Assembly: GCA_020051025.1 (NCBI GenBank)
Contig: JAGVJS010000303.1
Coordinates: forward strand, 1 to 8,162
Direction: 5' to 3'
Length of the DNA stretch: 8,162 nucleotides
DNA from: Sphingobium sp.
GTDB taxonomy: Bacteria > Pseudomonadota > Alphaproteobacteria > Sphingomonadales > Sphingomonadaceae
Position 1 is the first letter of the stretch; every line of letters starts with the position of its first letter. The notes beneath the pieces are model-generated. The model saw only the letters and a list, made by a program, of their open reading frames with translations. It had not been told where the DNA came from and ran no database searches. A program made the position numbers and the translations under genes. Positions 24 to 7,804 of this stretch are shown here, one piece after another.

Positions 24-97
24 GCGGGTATAGCTCAATGGTAGAGCACTAGCCTTCCAAGCTTGTGATGCGGGTTCGATCCCCGCTACCCGCTCCA
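24..97 (+). tRNA. tRNA-Gly (anticodon UCC)
   Basis: Cloverleaf drawn by hand. The acceptor stem 24-30 pairs with 87-93, followed by discriminator T94 and an encoded CCA at 95-97. The D stem is 33-36/44-47. The anticodon stem is 49-53/61-65 with a seven-base loop at 54-60 and anticodon TCC at 56-58. The variable loop is four bases and the T stem is 70-74/82-86 with loop TTCGATC. One defect is visible: T50 faces T64, the second pair of the anticodon stem, while all other stem pairs are Watson-Crick. The gene borders the integrase, so it is almost certainly the integration target, and the mismatch may come from recombination replacing its 3' half. No T-rich terminator follows it on the plus strand. 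Confidence 0.95.
54..97. other. Putative attL core in the 3' half of the tRNA gene
   Basis: A tyrosine integrase gene ends 17 bases beyond the tRNA CCA and points towards it, the classic arrangement of an element inserted in a tRNA gene. Such elements carry a copy of the tRNA 3' part and restore the gene on insertion. The T50/T64 mismatch suggests that the 5' and 3' halves have different origins, placing the crossover between 50 and 64, most likely in the anticodon loop. The exact core cannot be fixed without the other end (attR), which is outside the window. Confidence 0.55.
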
Positions 98-114: not shown

Positions 115-1350
115 TCAGCCGTTTTTTCCGCCTTCCACTAGGCGAAGGCCTTTGCCGGCTGCGGTAACGGTGCGGTAAGCGTCGGGCGACAGTGCCTCGA
201 TTTCGCCAATGATCTCTTCCGTTGCGCCTAGGACCATGCCCAGATTTGCGGGGTCGGGGATCGCGTAAATGTCGCTGGTTGCGAAAGGGACGTGGCCCAG
301 CATGATCTCGCCTTGCCGCCAGTTCGCCTCACCAATGCGTCGGCGCACCAGCGTTGCCATCGATCGACGAATCAGCTTCGGCCCGGCCTGCCTGTCCTCG
401 GGCAGGCCCAGGTGCGCGCGCATCTTGTCCCACGAATTGCGGATGGTGCTGACCGGGATCCAAAGATCGTCCATCCCGTCGAGCAACGGGGCGCATTGGG
501 CGGCGATCGGGACCATAGGCTGACGCTTGTTCGTTCGAAGGCGGCGGGCCGGGTTCAGATCCAGCACGCGCGCGTCAGCGTGCCACTGGTCGCGCTTGAC
601 GGCCAGCACGGTTTCGGGGCGCGCCCAGCTCGCGACGGCCAGCTGAAGGTAGCGCAACAGGTTCGTCCTGGTCGCCGCGATCATGGCGCGTTCTTTGTCA
701 GAGCGGCCGCCGTCGGGCCGCAGGCAATAGTCGAACATCGCGGCGATCGTCTTGACGTCGGCGCGATAGGTGGGCGACCGTGCGACATCGACCTGCTGGC
801 GGGCCTTGAACTGCGCTTTCTGACCGGGCGTTGCATTGATCGCGGCGGCAAACTGCATCACGCTACCCTCGACATGCGCGAGCGATCTTTCGCGCAGATA
901 TTCGCCTTTGCTGCTTGTGACAGGCCGCTTGAGTGCCCACGCGCGAAATTTGTTGATCCACGGTTCGTTGATGGCGGCGCACACGACCTTGGCGTCCGTT
1001 TCGGCCACATAGTCGATGATGTGCGCCAAGCGGTGCCGCGCGGCTGCTTCGCTGGCCTTGCCCTCGATCAGGATGAGATAGTCGGCAATCGCATCGGCGA
1101 CGGTCGGGGATGCCTCATGTTCCCACGGTCGATGGCAATGCGGGCACATGCGGTGCCCGGTCTGGGTTAGGTAGTGGCGATCGAGCGCGATGCGCCCTTC
1201 CGCAACATCGTCCGTGCCCGCGCTAATGGATCGCTCGCGTCGCCGCTCCGAATCGTACCAGACGATTTCAAGGTTGGCTCGGCCGGCGCGGCGATGGAGC
1301 GCAAAGTCTCCGCGCTGGTAGAGCGGCTTCGGGCGCTTCGTTGCAGGCAT
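115..1350 (-). CDS. int: Tyrosine recombinase (phage integrase)
   Basis: A 411-residue site-specific recombinase that would insert and excise the element at the adjacent tRNA. The N-terminal part (about 10-60, with YQRGDF and a VWYD segment) looks like the arm-binding region of this family. A core-binding domain (about 80-210) and a C-terminal catalytic domain follow. Visible active-site candidates are R244 (WARPE), K275 (RTNKRQ), R328, H353 (MLGH) and nucleophile Y362. The usual His of the HxxR box is Lys325 (KLIR). Residues 66-78 hold a CPHC motif with nearby histidines, possibly a small metal knuckle. ATG at 1350 is chosen for the AGAGGA four bases upstream. It is the last gene of the leftward operon and its first about 180 bases overlap the preceding ORF, so expression probably depends on the operator-controlled promoter near 5155. 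Confidence 0.93.
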   Translation of the reverse strand: MPATKRPKPLYQRGDFALHRRAGRANLEIVWYDSERRRERSISAGTDDVAEGRIALDRHYLTQTGHRMCPHCHRPWEHEASPTVADAIADYLILIEGKASEAAARHRLAHIIDYVAETDAKVVCAAINEPWINKFRAWALKRPVTSSKGEYLRERSLAHVEGSVMQFAAAINATPGQKAQFKARQQVDVARSPTYRADVKTIAAMFDYCLRPDGGRSDKERAMIAATRTNLLRYLQLAVASWARPETVLAVKRDQWHADARVLDLNPARRLRTNKRQPMVPIAAQCAPLLDGMDDLWIPVSTIRNSWDKMRAHLGLPEDRQAGPKLIRRSMATLVRRRIGEANWRQGEIMLGHVPFATSDIYAIPDPANLGMVLGATEEIIGEIEALSPDAYRTVTAAGKGLRLVEGGKNG

Positions 1351-2014: not shown

Positions 2015-2277
2015 TGGACGCGCCTGCCCGTATCGACGCCGAGAGACTTAACCGACGTTGCCGTAGCATCCAGCACTTCGCAATCAGCGCGATCGAGATG
2101 CACCACGATCGCCAAGGCTTGGCTCAGTTCGTGATCTCCAACGATCATCGCGTCGTTCACCGTCCCCTTATGCGAAATGATTATTGATATTTCCGCCTCG
2201 ACGTCGGCTGGCATGACACCATGGAGATTATCGATCGCGGCGGCCGCCATTTGAAGGAGCTGATCTCGCAGCGTCAT
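2011..2277 (-). CDS. Hypothetical protein, 88 aa
   Basis: Unknown function. The frame is open further upstream (an ATG at 2364), but I chose ATG at 2277 because it forms an ATGA overlap with the methyltransferase stop, like the other junctions, and has AAGGA seven bases upstream. The longer version adds a 29-residue Arg-rich extension read inside the methyltransferase gene. The product starts MTLRDQLLQMAAAAIDNLHG, followed by an alternating hydrophobic stretch (EAEISIIISHKGT, about 32-44) and a helical part (SQALAIVVHLDRADCEVLDA, about 56-75). This is compatible with a small alpha/beta fold. No motif is recognised. Its position directly behind the methyltransferase may mean an accessory role, which is only inference. 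Confidence 0.72.
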   Translation of the reverse strand: MTLRDQLLQMAAAAIDNLHGVMPADVEAEISIIISHKGTVNDAMIVGDHELSQALAIVVHLDRADCEVLDATATSVKSLGVDTGRRVQ

Positions 2278-4010
2278 GCCGCCATCCTTTCCACTTCGCC
2301 GTCGCTGGCGACGTTCGCTCGGGCCAGCGCTTCGGACATGACAGGGGATACGCTGTTGCCGCACATGCGGACCTGCGCCGTCTTGGTGAGCGGGCGGCCG
2401 TTGACCATCAGATCGATGATGTAATCAGGCGGGAAGCCCTGCGCGGCGAACAGCTCGCGCGGCGTCAGCATCCGCATGCCGATATCGACGATGACATAGT
2501 CTTCACCGCCGATCGTCACGACTACCAAGCCGAAGCGGTCCTTGGTTGTGACGGCGCCCAGCGGGCCGCCCAGTCCGTGACCATCCTGCTCATTGCCGTA
2601 ATATTTGACCAGGAAGGCGCGGACCTCCCTAAAGTGGCCGCCGCCGCTTGTCAGGGTGCCGATAGGCGCGTCATTGCCCTGTCCCACGCAGTTGTTGCGC
2701 AGCTTGACCAGATGGCTGGCCACGACGCCCTGTTGCGTCCCCCGCGCCGTGATGGTGCTGACAGGCGTTTGCGCGCTATGCCCGGCATGCAGGCCGCCGC
2801 GCGGCATCGTGTTGTGCTGCGCCATGAAGGCAGCGACCAGATATTGATGCGCGCCACCAGCGGTGATGGTGTGTGTCGGTTCGCCAGCGTCGGTGTGGGG
2901 CTTGCCGCTGTTGCGCATCGTCATGACGTGCGGAGCGATCAGCGCGATTTCTCCCCGGTGCGCGCCTGTGATGGTCGGGATCGGTTCGCCCGGCGCGTAG
3001 TTGCGGTCGGCGCTGCCATGGTGCGTCAGGGGCATGAAGAATGGCGTCACGACGGCGAACTCGCCGCCCTTGGCCGTCGTGATAGTGCGCAGCGGTTCGT
3101 CACCGGCATAGACGCGCCCTGCGCCCCATGTGCCGTTGCAGACCGGCACGATGAACGGGTGCGGCGCATTGATGACATAGCGCATGATGCCGGCGGCAAT
3201 GCGGCGGCAGGTGGCATCCTTCAGCGGCCGCGCGCGGGTGAAGATCGACGGGCACGGGATGCTCCAGTCGATGATCTCCGCCGCCGTGCGCCATGGCAGC
3301 AGCTGGCCAGCCTCCACCGACGCGGTGCCGGGCTTGCCATGGGTCGGCCGGGGCCAGACGATCTTCTGACCGTCGCAGCGGGCGATCATGAAGAGGCGTT
3401 TGCGTGAGGTCGGCGCGCCATAGTCGCAGGCGCGCAGCTCCTTCCATTCGACGCGGTATCCGGCGCGGCGCAGCTTCGCCACCCACAGGTCGAACGTCTT
3501 GCCCTTCGCCTTGGGGCATGGGCGGCCGTCATCGGCCAGCGGCCCCCATGTCCGGAATTCCTCGACATTTTCCAGCATGATGATCGCCGGGCGCAGTGTC
3601 GGCCCGAGACGGTCGATCCAGTGATGCACGACCCATGCAAGGTCGCGGATATTCTTTTCGACCGGCTTGCCGCCCTTCGCCTTGCTGAAATGCTTACAGT
3701 CGGGTGAGAACCAGGCGAGCCGCACCGGACGCGGGCGCATGTCGCCATTGTCGTTGGCGAAGGTTACCGCCTCCAGCGGATCGACCGCCCAGACGCTCTG
3801 GCACAGATGCCGCGTCGTCGGGTGATTGGCGGCATGCATCGCCACCGCCTCGGGATCATGGTTGACGGCAACGTCGACCTGCCGGCGCAGCGCCAGCTCG
3901 ATCCCGGTCGAGGCGCCGCCGCCGCCGGCGAAGTTGTCGACGATGATGCCGTCGTTCCAGTCGCGCGCAGGTGCGGCGCGATCGAGGTCGATCAAGAGAG
4001 CGCTGCTCAT
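2274..4010 (-). CDS. DNA (cytosine-5) methyltransferase
   Basis: A 578-residue C5-cytosine DNA methylase that would transfer a methyl group from S-adenosylmethionine to cytosine in a specific sequence. Visible motifs are motif I DNFAGGGGAS (25-34, cofactor loop), motif IV SPDCKHFS with catalytic Cys105, motif VI ENVEEF (147-152), motif VIII TSRKRLF (201-207), motif IX LTPRELFAAQGFP (515-527) and motif X GNSVSPVMSEALA (551-563). The target-recognition region between VIII and IX is long and holds six units of the pattern Pro-x-x-(x)-T-I/L/V-T, with prolines at 306, 343, 378, 416, 449 and 483. ATG at 4010 has GAGGAG eight bases upstream and an ATGA overlap with the previous stop. No restriction nuclease is adjacent, so this is probably an orphan enzyme that protects phage DNA or alters expression. 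Its recognition sequence cannot be read from the protein. Confidence 0.95.
   Translation of the reverse strand: MSSALLIDLDRAAPARDWNDGIIVDNFAGGGGASTGIELALRRQVDVAVNHDPEAVAMHAANHPTTRHLCQSVWAVDPLEAVTFANDNGDMRPRPVRLAWFSPDCKHFSKAKGGKPVEKNIRDLAWVVHHWIDRLGPTLRPAIIMLENVEEFRTWGPLADDGRPCPKAKGKTFDLWVAKLRRAGYRVEWKELRACDYGAPTSRKRLFMIARCDGQKIVWPRPTHGKPGTASVEAGQLLPWRTAAEIIDWSIPCPSIFTRARPLKDATCRRIAAGIMRYVINAPHPFIVPVCNGTWGAGRVYAGDEPLRTITTAKGGEFAVVTPFFMPLTHHGSADRNYAPGEPIPTITGAHRGEIALIAPHVMTMRNSGKPHTDAGEPTHTITAGGAHQYLVAAFMAQHNTMPRGGLHAGHSAQTPVSTITARGTQQGVVASHLVKLRNNCVGQGNDAPIGTLTSGGGHFREVRAFLVKYYGNEQDGHGLGGPLGAVTTKDRFGLVVVTIGGEDYVIVDIGMRMLTPRELFAAQGFPPDYIIDLMVNGRPLTKTAQVRMCGNSVSPVMSEALARANVASDGEVERMAA
2547..3095 (-). 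repeat. Six protein-level repeats in the methyltransferase target-recognition region
   Basis: Units begin at residues 306 (PLRTITTAKGGE), 343 (PIPTITGAHRGE), 378 (PTHTITAGGAHQ), 416 (PVSTITARGTQQ), 449 (PIGTLTSGGGHF) and 483 (PLGAVTTKDRFG). Spacings are 37, 35, 38, 33 and 34 residues. Each is followed by a hydrophobic strand such as FAVVTPFF, IALIAPHV or YLVAAFMA. The DNA is not obviously repetitive, so the duplications would be old. One or two PxxTITT motifs ahead of motif IX are normal in this enzyme family. Six regular copies suggest a solenoid-like or multi-module recognition domain, which is inference. Confidence 0.8.
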
Positions 4011-4458: not shown

Positions 4459-4961
4459 AGCGCCAGCCTCCGTTCGATCAGGTCGGCAGGCAGGCCAGTC
4501 ACGCGCTCCAGTTCGGCACGGAAGGCGTCGCGGGCCATGGACTGGTTTTCCAGTTCGCCGGCATATTGGCCGACCATGGCCGTGTCGGTCGCGGTGCGCG
4601 CAGCGAGACTGGCCACATGGCCGGAAACCATTTCCAAATGCAGTCCGGCAAGGCCGAGCGATGTAAGATGGTGAGACAGACCTGAGGGACGCCCTGCGTC
4701 GCGGCTCGACGGAGTGACGTCGCTGTTGCTGATGTAAAGGCCCCGGAAACCGCGTGCGCCCAGATCAAGCCGCGTTGGCTGGAACCCCGCATAGCCCATT
4801 GCGGTCTCCAAGCTACGCGGTGAACCGGCGTCATGGCCACGCATGCGACACCACTGCGAAAAACTCTCATGCAGTGCGTCGAGGCTGACATTTGCCCCTT
4901 CGCTATCTTGCGTGTGGGCGGCCAGATATGTGCGCAGGAGCGCAAGCGTCGGGCCGCTCAT
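4455..4961 (-). CDS. Winged-helix-like DNA-binding protein (resembles a primase C-terminal domain)
   Basis: A 168-residue protein. Residues about 7-77 read like the winged-helix module that ends phage P4/D5-type primase-helicases: a helix (LALLRTYLAAHTQ), VSLDALHESFSQWCRMRGHD, a helix with SLETAMGYAGF, and a wing with RLDLGARGFRGLYI. In that family the module follows a primase and ATPase, but none is present here, so it stands alone. The C-terminal half (90-168) is helical, without a recognised domain, ending ERVTGLPADLIERRLAL. ATG at 4961 overlaps the stop of the small membrane protein as ATGA and lacks a good Shine-Dalgarno, so it probably depends on coupling. A role in replication or transcription is plausible. 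The fold match is by eye. Confidence 0.72.
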   Translation of the reverse strand: MSGPTLALLRTYLAAHTQDSEGANVSLDALHESFSQWCRMRGHDAGSPRSLETAMGYAGFQPTRLDLGARGFRGLYISNSDVTPSSRDAGRPSGLSHHLTSLGLAGLHLEMVSGHVASLAARTATDTAMVGQYAGELENQSMARDAFRAELERVTGLPADLIERRLAL

Positions 4962-5104
4962 GCCCAGATCGCCCAGGCAACAAGGGCGACCGACCCGACG
5001 AGGGCGGCCAGCGACACGATCATATAGAGGAATGCGTTAATCTCAGCTTCAAGCGACCGGTCGATGGCCGCCTGCTGTTCGGGCGAGAAATCGGAGTAGG
5101 GCAT
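4958..5104 (-). CDS. 48-residue single-pass membrane protein
   Basis: A short gene easily missed by length cut-offs. The N-terminal part is polar (MPYSDFSPEQQAAIDRSLEA). One hydrophobic segment of about 23 residues (25-47, containing FLYMIVSLAALVGSVALVAW) ends almost at the C terminus. GGGAGG lies six bases before the ATG, the strongest ribosome site in the operon, and the stop overlaps the next start as ATGA. The promoter is just upstream at 5131-5160, so this is the first gene of the leftward operon. Known small phage membrane proteins in such positions act in superinfection exclusion, as holin-like proteins or as modulators of host proteases. Which, if any, applies here is unknown. Topology is probably N-terminus in the cytoplasm. 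Confidence 0.8.
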   Translation of the reverse strand: MPYSDFSPEQQAAIDRSLEAEINAFLYMIVSLAALVGSVALVAWAIWA

Positions 5105-5130
5105 TGGTGCCTCCCGTTGGTGACGGAAGG

Positions 5131-5160
5131 CATAAACACCATATCGGTGTTACATGTCAA
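5131..5160 (-). promoter_or_regulatory. Promoter of the leftward operon (PL-like), overlapped by operators
   Basis: On the minus strand a perfect -35 box TTGACA lies at 5160-5155. It is followed after 18 bases by TTTATG at 5136-5131, or after 17 bases by GTTTAT, as the -10. The -35 begins within the last base of the operator at 5160..5174, and the other operator (5136..5150) fills most of the spacer and touches the -10. A repressor on either site would block polymerase. The first gene starts 27 bases beyond the -10. Confidence 0.7.
5136..5150. promoter_or_regulatory. Repressor operator, site OL1
   Basis: ACACC-ATATC-GGTGT, a hyphenated dyad. The half-sites match those in front of the Cro-like gene. 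It overlaps the spacer and -10 of the leftward promoter. Assignment to the S24 repressor rests on the same motif occurring at that gene's own upstream region. Confidence 0.8.
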
Positions 5161-5174
5161 CACCGATATGGTGT
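5160..5174. promoter_or_regulatory. Repressor operator, site OL2
   Basis: On the minus strand it reads ACACC-ATATC-GGTGT, identical to the neighbouring site and inverted relative to it. Centres are 24 bp apart. It abuts the -35 box of the leftward promoter, sharing one base with it. Confidence 0.8.
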
Positions 5175-5576
5175 TTAATCGTCGTATACTTCATCTGGCC
5201 ACCAATCGGCATCGTCAGAACCGGGAGGCGGCCAATCGAATGCTCGTGAATCATCTGGTGTCGGCAGCACCGGCTCGGTGCCATCCGTATGAACACGAAT
5301 GATCGCGCCCCACTGCGCCGTCTCTTGAAAGATCGCCGACACGCCGCCTCGGCTCATTGCCGATCCGATCAATTGCGCCCGTTCGGCGCGAACATAGCCA
5401 ATCTGGATTTGCCGATTTGAAAAAACGGCTATTGCACGGGGATCGACAGGGTTCCTCGGTTCAGGAACCAAGTGCACTGGTTCGCCCGGCAAGCATAGTG
5501 CGATCTCGAAGCGCCTTGCCGGTCCTTTCTTGTTTGGATGGTCAGCGCCGACAACGGCCAGCGACAGTCGTTTCAC
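5175..5576 (-). CDS. Stand-alone HIRAN-domain protein
   Basis: A 133-residue protein. Residues about 5-90 fit the HIRAN domain: VVGADHP at the start, FEIALCLPGEPVHLVPEP, the conserved RNPVDPRAIAV (41-51, with N42, D45 and A48) and IQIGYVRAERA (57-67). HIRAN in eukaryotic HLTF/Rad5 binds single-stranded 3' ends at stalled forks. Bacterial stand-alone copies are predicted to sense damaged or branched DNA. After about residue 100 the chain is Pro/Asp/Trp-rich and ends in an acidic tail (DDADWWPDEVYDD), perhaps a partner-binding or DNA-mimicking segment. It starts with GTG overlapping the repressor stop as GTGA, so it should be co-transcribed with the repressor and expressed in the lysogen. No helicase or nuclease is fused or adjacent. 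Confidence 0.85.
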   Translation of the reverse strand: MKRLSLAVVGADHPNKKGPARRFEIALCLPGEPVHLVPEPRNPVDPRAIAVFSNRQIQIGYVRAERAQLIGSAMSRGGVSAIFQETAQWGAIIRVHTDGTEPVLPTPDDSRAFDWPPPGSDDADWWPDEVYDD

Positions 5577-6247
5577 ATCTCGCGCCCAAACCAGATAGCG
5601 CGGCCATGTATGCGCAGTTCGTCGGCCGCAACGTCGAAGTCGGGCCCACCAGCAACCTTATTATCGGACGATATCATCAACCGGCCCGACCCTGCTGCGC
5701 GCAGCCGCTTCAGTCCATGGGCGCCGAAGTGATCAATCCAGTAAATTCCATGCATCCGCGTCAAGGCGCGATCGGCCGTATCAATTAATACCCGGTCTCC
5801 TGTGCGCAACGTAGGCTCCATGCTGTCGCCAATACCCCGGATCTGGCGGAGAAAATGAAATGGCGATCGCGTGAGGATGCGGAGCAGCCCAAGGTCCCAT
5901 TTCACTGGTTCTTCTTCAATCATGTCTTCGATGAGGGTGCCCGGTCCCATCGACACGGAAAGATCCAGAGAAATGATATCTACCGTTCCATCGTCGGCGG
6001 ATGCGCTGCGTGTTGGCAGTCGATCCGAGAGGATATAGCCGTCGTTTGCGGCGCCAGGTGTGATTATATCGCCAACCGGTACGCCGAATGCGGTTGCCGC
6101 CTTCTCGATCCAATCGGTGTTGAGGCCGCGCATCCCCTTTTCTAGTCGCTCGATCTGCTGGGGCGTGGTGCCCATTCGCTTGGCCAGTTCCGGCCGCGCC
6201 CAGCCCTTTGCCTCCCGAAAAGCAGCAATGTTGTTGGCAATTGTCAT
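5573..6247 (-). CDS. CI-like phage repressor (XRE HTH plus S24 peptidase)
   Basis: A 224-residue lysogeny repressor. Residues about 3-60 form an XRE helix-turn-helix (NNIAAFREAKGWARPELAKR, then TTPQQIERLEKGMRGLN). A linker leads to a LexA/S24-type peptidase and dimerisation domain (about 130-224) with GIGDSMEPTLRTGDRVLID, catalytic Ser142, and Lys180 in GLKRLR, a 38-residue spacing close to LexA. The usual Ala-Gly cleavage pair in the SAGxG-like segment appears as Met100-Gly101 (SVSMGPG). The frame is open far upstream, but ATG 6247 is chosen because the HTH starts there, GAGG precedes it and the operators lie just upstream. It is divergent from the Cro-like gene and coupled to HIRAN. It should bind the five operators and probably autoregulates. 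Confidence 0.93.
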   Translation of the reverse strand: MTIANNIAAFREAKGWARPELAKRMGTTPQQIERLEKGMRGLNTDWIEKAATAFGVPVGDIITPGAANDGYILSDRLPTRSASADDGTVDIISLDLSVSMGPGTLIEDMIEEEPVKWDLGLLRILTRSPFHFLRQIRGIGDSMEPTLRTGDRVLIDTADRALTRMHGIYWIDHFGAHGLKRLRAAGSGRLMISSDNKVAGGPDFDVAADELRIHGRAIWFGREM

Positions 6248-6257
6248 GCTTCCTCTT

Positions 6258-6272
6258 GCACCAAATTGGTGC
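6258..6272. promoter_or_regulatory. Repressor operator, site OR3 (nearest the repressor)
   Basis: GCACC-AAATT-GGTGC, an exact palindrome around its central A. It begins 11 bases before the repressor start codon, a position suited to negative autoregulation. Confidence 0.78.
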
Positions 6273-6283
6273 CGCACGCCCAT

Positions 6284-6298
6284 ACTCCAAATTGGTGT
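6284..6298. promoter_or_regulatory. Repressor operator, site OR2
   Basis: ACTCC-AAATT-GGTGT, one half-site base off the others. Its last base is the first base of the -35 box TTGACA of the rightward promoter. It lies 26 bp centre to centre from the site at 6258. Confidence 0.72.
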
Positions 6299-6327
6299 TG
6301 ACAGGATGGTGTTGTTAGCACCATATC
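6298..6327 (+). promoter_or_regulatory. Rightward early promoter (PR-like)
   Basis: A perfect -35 box TTGACA lies at 6298-6303. The -10 is weak: CATATC at 18-base spacing (6322-6327) or CCATAT at 17. It lies inside the operator at 6318..6332, so repressor binding would cover it. The Cro-like gene starts about 21 bases downstream. The repressor's own promoter on the other strand is not clear: TTGGAG at 6291-6286 is a weak candidate. Confidence 0.6.
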
Positions 6328-6332
6328 GGTGT
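6318..6332. promoter_or_regulatory. Repressor operator, site OR1
   Basis: GCACC-ATATC-GGTGT overlaps the -10 of the rightward promoter. The central ATATC is shared with the two sites near 5140, which may form one affinity class, while the two AAATT sites nearer the repressor form another. It lies 34 bp centre to centre from the site at 6284. An extra GGTGT half-site occurs at 6308-6312. Confidence 0.8.
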
Positions 6333-6348
6333 CGCACGGAGGAATTAG

Positions 6349-6627
6349 ATGCAGCTTCAAGACTGGTTGACCATGAAAGGCCTGAGCAATCCGCAGTTCG
6401 GCAAGGCGATTTCTCGCACTGCCGAAGCGGTCCGCCGCTATGCCAGTGGCGAGCGCATCCCTGATCGCGACACGATGACCGCAATCGTGCGGGAAACGGA
6501 CGGCGCTGTGATGCCAAACGATTTCTACGGCGTTGATCATGACGAGGCTGGTAGCGCCGAAGTCGAGCTGTCGTCGCCCGGCAAAAACAACGATCTTGCC
6601 GCAGCGCAGCAAAGCGAGGCGGCGTGA
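6349..6627 (+). CDS. Cro-like HTH regulator
   Basis: A 92-residue protein divergent from the repressor, in the position of Cro. Residues 1-60 form a compact helix-turn-helix: MQLQDWLTMKGLSNPQFGKA, then a recognition-type helix (TAEAVRRYASGERIP) and a closing TDGAVMPNDFYG. The C-terminal 30 residues are polar, acidic and probably disordered. GGAGGA lies five bases before the ATG. It is probably the first gene expressed when the repressor is lost, and would counter repressor synthesis by binding the same operators. That role rests on position and fold type. YdaS-type or other small XRE-like families are alternatives. Confidence 0.85.
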   Translation: MQLQDWLTMKGLSNPQFGKAISRTAEAVRRYASGERIPDRDTMTAIVRETDGAVMPNDFYGVDHDEAGSAEVELSSPGKNNDLAAAQQSEAA

Positions 6628-7130
6628 TGTCTCGCACCATCGTCCTTTCACCTGAACAGCAGTCCGGCAAAGCGGCATTCGCAGCCAGCGTCAAAGCGTT
6701 CGGCGGGCAAGAAGCCGCAGCGTCCGAAACTGGCGTTCGTCGCCAGAAAATCAGCGACATGGGCCTGCGTAACATCGCCGAATTTCCCACGCTCGACCTG
6801 ATCGACGCGCTGGAAGATCGCACGGTCGGCCTGCCTGGCTGGCCCCATGTCACTCACTGGTTGTGCCATCGCCGTGGTGGCGTGTTCGTGCCGCTTCCCC
6901 AAGGTGAAGATGACGCCGATGGCATGATGGTCACCGTCGCCGAACTGGCCGGTGAGCTGGGCGACGTGTCCCGCGCCATTTCCGAAGCGGTCTGCGCCTC
7001 TGGCGATGGTGGTCGCGATGTCACGGGCGCCGAAGCCGCCGCCGCGCTGGCTGAGCTGGACGGCCTCGATCGCACATCGGCGCAGCTGCGCCTGAAACTT
7101 CTTTCCAAAATGCAGGGAGAGCCGAAATGA
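6627..7130 (+). CDS. Putative phage CII-like regulatory protein, 167 aa
   Basis: Second gene of the rightward operon. ATG 6627 shares its A with the stop of the preceding gene (TGATG). A GTG three bases earlier (6624) is possible but less likely, and GAGG precedes both. Residues about 13-60 look like a divergent HTH: SGKAAFAASVKAFGGQEAAA, TGVRRQKISDMG, then EFPTLDLIDALEDRT. VTHWLCHRRGGVFVPLP (75-91) follows, reminiscent of the regulatory CII family of P2-like and other phages. The C-terminal part (100-165) is helical with Ala/Glu-rich stretches and may mediate oligomerisation. A role in the lysis-lysogeny decision or early activation is inferred from context. The family match is by eye and uncertain. 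Confidence 0.78.
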   Translation: MSRTIVLSPEQQSGKAAFAASVKAFGGQEAAASETGVRRQKISDMGLRNIAEFPTLDLIDALEDRTVGLPGWPHVTHWLCHRRGGVFVPLPQGEDDADGMMVTVAELAGELGDVSRAISEAVCASGDGGRDVTGAEAAAALAELDGLDRTSAQLRLKLLSKMQGEPK

Positions 7131-7804
7131 ACGATTTGAGCGGTTTTCGTCCTTTTAGCCTGGGCGTCTTTCGTGACGCGCTGATGGGCGGCGGCATCTA
7201 TCAGGGCGCACAGCTGATCATCGCCTGCCAGATCAAGCATCTTGGCTGTGTCGAGGCGCGGGCGTCCAGCAAGGGCGCGGTCGCGCTGGCAGACTGGCTG
7301 ATCGCTAAGGCCGATTTCATCGATCGCCCGAAGCCGGGCTGCCATCCGCTCAACAGTGGCACGACGATCGAGCGTATCCTCGCTGGCGACATCCTGCCCG
7401 AAGAAGAATTCGCGCTGTCGCTCGCCGAGGCGACAGAAGGCGCGGTGCTGCCCGAGATGTTCGGACTGCCCACAGATACAGGATCTTCCGCGTCGGGGAC
7501 TTCCCCCCTGACCACCGACGCGGGGGAGAAGGCGTCGGAGCCGGTGGAATTCACCCCTGACCCGGCTTCGGCGCCTTCATTGATTGGGAATTTGCCACCG
7601 CTTGGCGTGCTGGGCGGGCAGTTGCCTTCGGGTCGGCTGTTCCACCCGATCGCGGATGGCCGCTTTCCCGGCGGCTTCGTGCTTACTGGGTGCGGCATCG
7701 CGATCAACCTGGACGAAAGCACCGCCACTGCCCTGCGCGACGCGGTCACCGCCGGGCTGGATCATCTGCGCAGCGCGCGCACGGGTCGGAGGGCCGCCGC
7801 ATGA
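7127..7804 (+). CDS. Hypothetical phage protein with a Cro-like segment, 225 aa
   Basis: ATG overlaps the previous stop as ATGA and GGGAG lies seven bases upstream. Two folded parts are separated by a Ser/Thr/Pro/Glu-rich, probably disordered linker (about 114-150). In the first part residues 79-113 (TTIERILAGDILPEEEFALS, then ATEGAVLPEMFG) match the second half of the Cro-like protein two genes upstream: G-x-x-x-P, then T-x-G-A-V-x-P-x-x-F at the same spacing. It therefore probably contains a degenerate HTH of the same lineage. The second part (about 150-225) has a strand-rich stretch (RLFHPIADGRFPGGFVLTG, then IAINLDESTATALRDAVTAG) and a basic tail. The function is unknown. A regulator or replication accessory protein is possible. 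Confidence 0.78.
   Translation: MNDLSGFRPFSLGVFRDALMGGGIYQGAQLIIACQIKHLGCVEARASSKGAVALADWLIAKADFIDRPKPGCHPLNSGTTIERILAGDILPEEEFALSLAEATEGAVLPEMFGLPTDTGSSASGTSPLTTDAGEKASEPVEFTPDPASAPSLIGNLPPLGVLGGQLPSGRLFHPIADGRFPGGFVLTGCGIAINLDESTATALRDAVTAGLDHLRSARTGRRAAA

Follow-up and report, generated by a model that had tools for sequence, protein, structure and literature searches.

In phage lambda, the cII gene lies to the right of cro. An excerpt of one account of that phage places the repressor gene between the OL and OR operator clusters, with accessory genes on the repressor transcript and cro rightward (PMC11077077). In phage 434, an excerpt of another account describes hex as the second gene of the repressor transcript, with what appears to be an overlap between the two genes, and reports that its product, Hex, blocks RecA-stimulated cleavage of the 434 repressor (PMC3564112). 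Lambda-like immunity is already known; what is new in the region described here is a HIRAN gene, two-ended switching in these prophages, and a proposed lock at the RNA level. Among the matches listed in a search of titles and the openings of abstracts, there was no description of this sphingomonad immunity region and no phage example of a read-through translation lock.

The region was studied in a stretch of 8,162 nucleotides of Sphingobium DNA, the whole of which is referred to below as the window. On its minus strand is a CI-like repressor gene (5573..6247), encoding an HTH and an S24 peptidase-like domain (PF01381, PF13560, and PF00717; phrog_4, 1.7e-28), followed by a HIRAN-domain gene (5175..5576; PF08797 at 36.1 bits against a cut-off of 24.7; phrog_27141, 4e-34) whose start overlaps the repressor stop by 4 bases. 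Rightward, on the plus strand, are a small, weakly supported Cro-like HTH protein (6349..6627; HTH_31, E 0.025, under the cut-off) with no match in PHROG and a CII-like activator (6624..7130; phrog_101, 8.8e-18; PF06892 at 24.6 bits, cut-off 26). Leftward, the first gene after the predicted promoter PL is an open reading frame of 48 amino acids (4958..5104, minus strand) that has a C-terminal half hydrophobic by eye and matched nothing in Pfam or PHROG. The repressor residues Ser142 and Lys180, candidates for the Ser/Lys dyad of RecA-stimulated self-cleavage, are invariant across 30 aligned sequences, window included. At the expected S24 cleavage site, residues 100-101, all 30 of these sequences have Met-Gly; in known S24 repressors, this position is Ala-Gly or Cys-Gly.

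As in lambda, the repressor gene is between two operator clusters on predicted promoters PL and PR, an accessory gene follows it, and a CII-like gene lies rightward beyond a weakly supported Cro-like one. The lambda-like arrangement of the first-pass annotation was borne out, in the order OR, cI, accessory gene, OL. There are also differences. Where lambda carries rexAB, the window has the HIRAN gene: a Pfam search of the rex position found neither RexA nor RexB, and HIRAN was the one Pfam family that the gene there matched at E 0.1. Lambda has three OL and three OR operators, and the window two and three. Here, the HIRAN stop codon adjoins the operator OL1, a generic terminator scan of positions 4900-6700 turned up nothing resembling a terminator between HIRAN and OL, and a leader hairpin is predicted to cover the ribosome-binding site of the first PL gene. 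With 434 hex, the HIRAN gene shares its place as second gene after the repressor and its overlap with the repressor gene; the gene itself is different, encoding a HIRAN protein, and the likeness is one of position.

Related loci were gathered around the repressor. Named repressor relatives came from Sphingobium, Novosphingobium, Sphingomonas, and their kin, and relatives on viral contigs were the best 80 of 130. The starting set of the window plus 138 loci was reduced to 117 once duplicates, and loci lacking a usable match to the repressor, had been removed; 69 of these have HIRAN, 67 have enough sequence beyond it, and 65 entered the comparison of both ends by 15-mers. The leader analysis used 56 loci with a TTGAC and 55 with a callable start (L128 was dropped), and every set includes the window. 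A HIRAN gene downstream of the repressor on the same strand was thus present in 69/117 nonredundant loci: in 53/58 whose repressors are at least 45% identical to the closest among ten query repressors, 14/21 at 38 to 45%, and 2/38 below that. The gap between the repressor and HIRAN genes ranges from -3 to 2201 bases, and cargo genes can fit in it, as seen in L009.

All five 15-base dyads that the first-pass annotation had placed at 5136, 5160, 6258, 6284, and 6318 were there, and each is an exact match to RCWCCAWATYGGTGY. Allowing up to three mismatches, a scan of both strands of the window gave 14 matches against 2.8 expected, and none of 200 shuffles gave 14 or more. The host genome was also scanned (2,442,578 bases in 433 contigs, 60.9% complete, the window being contig C98): the exact form occurred nowhere else, and the five window sites are its only matches. 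Single-mismatch matches outside the window occurred at three further places (C162, C214, and C238). At up to two mismatches, the genome held 108 matches versus 18 for a reversed control pattern, and for that reason we regard the loose motif as unspecific and the exact motif as specific. Across seven virus records of 8 to 48 kb, one of which (L008) is the window's own element, every exact half-site match fell within the two clusters, and at one mismatch 0 to 3 half-site matches per record fell outside them.

These operators, which had been described as sitting on the leftward promoter and on the divergent region between the repressor and the Cro-like gene, overlap two predicted promoters with TTGACA boxes. 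OL1 (5160..5174, minus strand) adjoins the HIRAN stop codon (5175-5177) and overlaps the predicted PL -35 element (TTGACA, 5155..5160, minus strand) by one base, the last of OL1 and the first of the hexamer. OL2 (5136..5150, plus strand) is an inverted copy of OL1 that occupies the PL spacer and touches the predicted, weak -10 element (GTTTAT, 5132..5137, minus strand, at 17-nt spacing). Extended by one base on each side, the OL sites become 17-base dyads of the form AACACC-N5-GGTGTT, and together they make a perfect inverted repeat with centers 24 bp apart. The OR operators, all on the plus strand and spaced by 26 and 34 bp, are the one closest to the repressor start (6258..6272), a middle one (6284..6298) that ends on the opening base of the PR -35 element predicted on reading the sequence (TTGACA, 6298..6303, plus strand), and a third (6318..6332) lying over the predicted PR -10 element (near 6321-6327). 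The OR positions of the two classes of operator center, ATATC and AAATT, are kept in six close relatives (L085, L086, L087, L088, L089, and L014), with GATAT at the Cro-proximal OR site and AATTT or AAATT at the next; in more distant relatives, the centers vary widely. The two classes may set an order of affinity among the sites, as the first-pass annotation suggested.

Conservation supports the placement of PL. In 56/67 loci, compared to 27/1426 control windows, the 75 bp that follow the HIRAN stop contain a TTGAC in the expected orientation, and seven of the 11 loci without it (L027, L041, L042, L116, L117, L119, and L133) show operators and a leader hairpin by eye. Counted from TTGAC in the 56 loci, the -10-like columns are at index 23-28, and the best -10 begins at index 23-25 in 42/56. 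The -10 boxes of both PL and PR are weak, and a generic promoter scan of positions 4900-6700 returned two promoter-like matches, neither at PL nor at PR, a result we retain as evidence against strong sigma-70 promoters at these predicted sites.

If one repressor reads both clusters, the operators at the two ends of a locus should resemble each other more than those of different loci. Each upstream region was compared with the 100-base stretch that spans and follows a HIRAN stop, and the best 15-mer match averaged 13.71/15 within the 65 loci, compared to 11.73 between loci and 11.95 for control windows taken 200 to 900 bases further on in the same locus. None of 20,000 shuffles reached 13.71 (maximum, 12.22), a significance that is overstated because the loci are related (for example, L088, L089, and L014) and not independent. 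Matches of at least 13/15 were found in 60/65 own-locus pairs versus 240/3452 ordered cross-locus pairs with dissimilar HTH domains; cross-locus pairs with similar HTH domains had them in 294/360 cases, and all cross-locus pairs in 615/4160. Very probably, judging from these sequence comparisons, one repressor governs both ends, and the first-pass claim that a single repressor controls both arms has gained strong support from the 60 own-locus matches and from the switching of both ends with the HTH. The operator regulon is real and is present across the family.

We predict with considerable confidence that the cassette's repressor binds all five sites and is likely to shut PL and PR together, and we propose an RNA-level lock in addition. 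Bound at both clusters, the repressor would silence the two promoters jointly, in the manner of lambda CI at OL and OR, and it would regulate its own gene through the OR site closest to the repressor start. Looping between OL and OR may also occur. The distance between the clusters, 1.12 to 3.33 kb in 47 loci (including L044, a locus with a weak, doubtful class call that was kept for distances and left out of class counts), would allow a loop. The same range argues for no fixed geometry, and no sequence feature requires a loop, points that favor a reading in which the clusters bind repressor independently and the second cluster merely represses PL. Against this is the presence of at least two operators at each end, which an excerpt on lambda gives as a layout that permits looping (PMC11077077); we judge independent binding to fall just short of an even chance.

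The mRNA of the repressor and HIRAN genes would run through OL into the PL genes, and it is because this message would enter PL with no terminator found on the way that a lock at the RNA level is proposed. In IS10 and IS50, read-through mRNA folds over the ribosome-binding site, while mRNA from the element's own promoter is without the upstream arm. The predicted fold here is alike in covering the ribosome-binding site in read-through RNA, and different in what it would guard: the insertion sequences shield a transposase against external promoters, and here an early phage gene would be shielded against the repressor operon of the same phage. In the window, the PL leader hairpin (5108..5132, minus strand; -16.2 kcal/mol; z scores of -4.1 and -4.2) consists of 10 pairs between a 5' arm at 5132-5123 and a 3' arm at 5117-5108, with a loop at 5122-5118. 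The Shine-Dalgarno sequence GGGAGG (5115-5110) of the first PL gene is within the 3' arm, and the inferred transcription start, near 5125-5123, falls in the 5' arm. In read-through mRNA, the hairpin would bury the ribosome-binding site of the first PL gene; an mRNA begun at PL would start inside the 5' arm, lose the hairpin, and be translatable.

Predicted hairpins over the Shine-Dalgarno sequence recur across the family. A helix of at least 4 pairs whose 5' arm begins between index 25 and index 33, counted from TTGAC, was found in 49/55 loci, and the distance from TTGAC to the 5' arm is nearly fixed while loop length varies from 4 to 74 nt. Helices of at least 6 pairs over the Shine-Dalgarno sequence were present in 47/55 leaders versus 82/400 other starts in the same loci, and helices of at least 7 pairs in 37/55 versus 34/400. 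The three pairs just inside the Shine-Dalgarno sequence form in 114/147 cases, compared to a mean of 69.8 and a maximum of 86 in 5000 shuffles; with identical arm pairs counted once, they form in 58/81. Rfam searched at the gathering threshold in the window and six relatives returned one tRNA and no family at the leader. The long-loop leaders of seven loci (L031, L033, L101, L102, L112, L038, and L040) have a common inner stretch, GTGAGCCGMAAGCGCAGACC, despite operators of different classes.

Whether this hairpin acts as a lock depends on where the PL transcript begins. Since the -10-like columns are at index 23-28, we infer a start near index 35-37; a purine is present there in 56/56 loci, and an A is at index 35 or 36 in 43/56, both being weak tests. 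Index 31-34 is all pyrimidine in 36/56 loci, compared to 8/224 control tetramers further on. No more than 4 pairs remain in 47/49 loci if transcription starts at index 35, in 32 if it starts at index 34, and in 20 if it starts at index 33, and these differences make the exact start matter for the lock. The median predicted openness of the Shine-Dalgarno sequence in 55 loci was 0.04 in read-through RNA and 0.29 in RNA from index 36, and for 200 control starts it was 0.30 in full and 0.38 trimmed. Openness below 0.2 in read-through RNA was found in 45/55 leaders versus 60/200 controls, and a gain of more than 0.3 on trimming in 14/55 versus 26/200.

We favor the reading of the hairpin as a lock against read-through translation, giving it about an even chance. 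Its competitor is that the hairpin is a conventional element at the 5' end of PL mRNA, a stabilizer or the target of a regulator, that is whole in PL transcripts. The hairpin does lie at the extreme 5' end of the leader, a start one or two bases earlier than the inferred one would keep more of the stem, and trimming at index 36 left the site shut (openness below 0.2) in 16/55 leaders, and openness was lost in four. An ordinary element does not readily account for the placement of the 5' arm, which begins at index 29-32 in 39/49 loci, just past the -10-like columns, and of which a start at index 35 would leave no more than 4 pairs in 47/49. Nor does it fit the PR leaders, for which no upstream transcript is expected and which mostly have no such hairpin: among the 17 callable ones (of 69 loci), helices of at least 6 pairs were found in four, all with start calls long or doubtful by eye, and helices of at least 7 pairs in two. 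We consider the ordinary element a substantial possibility, somewhat below even. Joining the two levels, we suggest tentatively, with nearly but not quite even expectations, that sphingomonad prophages carry a portable two-layer immunity module, in which a PL translation lock gated by the start site is combined with HTH-linked operators at two ends and HIRAN occupies the rex position.

The sharing of operators by the two ends of a locus might instead reflect solely the inheritance of the whole segment as a block. With hand-drawn patterns, 46 loci could be sorted into nine operator classes, and more classes are visible by eye among 22 loci. The nearest neighbor by HIRAN shares the operator class in 20/40 cases, above the roughly 7/43 expected of a random neighbor, which is what block inheritance would lead one to expect, and the nearest neighbor by S24 shares it in 19/43; by HTH the figure is 43/43, a result that is not fully blind because the class patterns were drawn by hand, although the 15-mer comparison is blind. 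In that comparison, pairs with similar HIRAN and dissimilar HTH domains averaged 11.60 (390 ordered pairs) and pairs with similar S24 and dissimilar HTH domains 11.58 (429 ordered pairs), both at the background of 11.73, whereas similar HTH with dissimilar S24 domains gave 13.41 (170 ordered pairs). Since loci alike in HIRAN or S24 and different in HTH match no better than background, the middle of the segment does not travel with its ends, and block inheritance as the sole cause is improbable. A reading in which the operators belong mainly to Cro or some other regulator of the phage, the repressor using other sites, can draw on the Cro-like frame that separates the OR cluster from the CII-like gene, but operator class follows the repressor HTH in every one of the 43 nearest-neighbor tests and Cro and CI of lambda bind shared sites (PMC11077077), leaving this the least probable of all.

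Comparing the clusters in related prophages, as the first-pass annotation had proposed, we found that both ends change with the repressor HTH. There are 128 pairs of loci with S24 domains more than 60% identical and different operator classes, and 87 pairs of the same class with S24 domains less than 50% identical. L027 amounts to a natural swap: its S24 domain is 81% like that of the window, its HTH is different, and its operators are different at both ends. In L046, L091, and L121, an operator pair lies beyond an extra gene (identified by eye) that follows HIRAN; in L155, no OL was found in the stretches examined. These patterns indicate that operator identity is decided by the HTH and not by the intervening DNA, and because OL lies beyond the S24 domain, the cargo, and HIRAN, selection for a single repressor that reads both clusters is the best explanation of its match to the HTH. 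The family thus offers a natural collection of matched repressor and operator specificities, nine classes called and others seen by eye, on a common scaffold. Nature has swapped the DNA-reading domain together with both distant clusters, which makes specificity and long-range coupling directly testable. The leader lock, if real, would explain how the repressor operon can be transcribed toward a lytic promoter without a terminator.

HIRAN domains are known from eukaryotic replication-fork repair, and a HIRAN protein is now placed beside the repressor of a lysogeny switch. An AlphaFold model of the protein (mean pLDDT, 82.1) matches human HLTF HIRAN structures (4s0n_B; Foldseek E, 8.0e-6; TM, 0.52). 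Common to the two are the PF08797 match above cut-off and the fold; here, the domain is a stand-alone phage protein of 133 amino acids without a helicase, and its DNA-binding role is putative. The gene would be placed for expression from the repressor mRNA in the lysogen, and by analogy its position suggests either a Hex-like role in guarding the repressor or a Rex-like role in exclusion. Across 65 loci, HIRAN similarity is correlated with S24 similarity (Mantel, 0.41), and HTH similarity with that of its own S24 domain less so (0.12). The HIRAN-S24 value is 0.81 when the genes adjoin (HTH-S24 then being 0.58) and 0.40 across at least 900 bases of cargo. We considered coevolution of HIRAN and S24 as a sign of functional coupling and do not claim it, because the correlation is stronger for adjoining genes than for those far apart; linkage or shared lineage would also give such a correlation.

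Extra genes are found between the two operator clusters in L009, within the gap between the repressor and HIRAN genes (about 6698-7330), and in L091, after HIRAN; by eye, their products are secreted- or lipoprotein-like. The position is likely a slot for lysogenic-conversion genes. Leftward of PL and on the PL strand, the window carries a C5 cytosine DNA methylase gene (2274-4010, minus strand; PF00145, phrog_116). Near its beginning, a tRNA-Gly gene (TCC; 24-97, plus strand) stands beside an open reading frame of 411 amino acids (115-1350, minus strand) that had no Pfam or PHROG match and yet is tyrosine recombinase-like by eye; this end of the window is probably the attachment end of the element.
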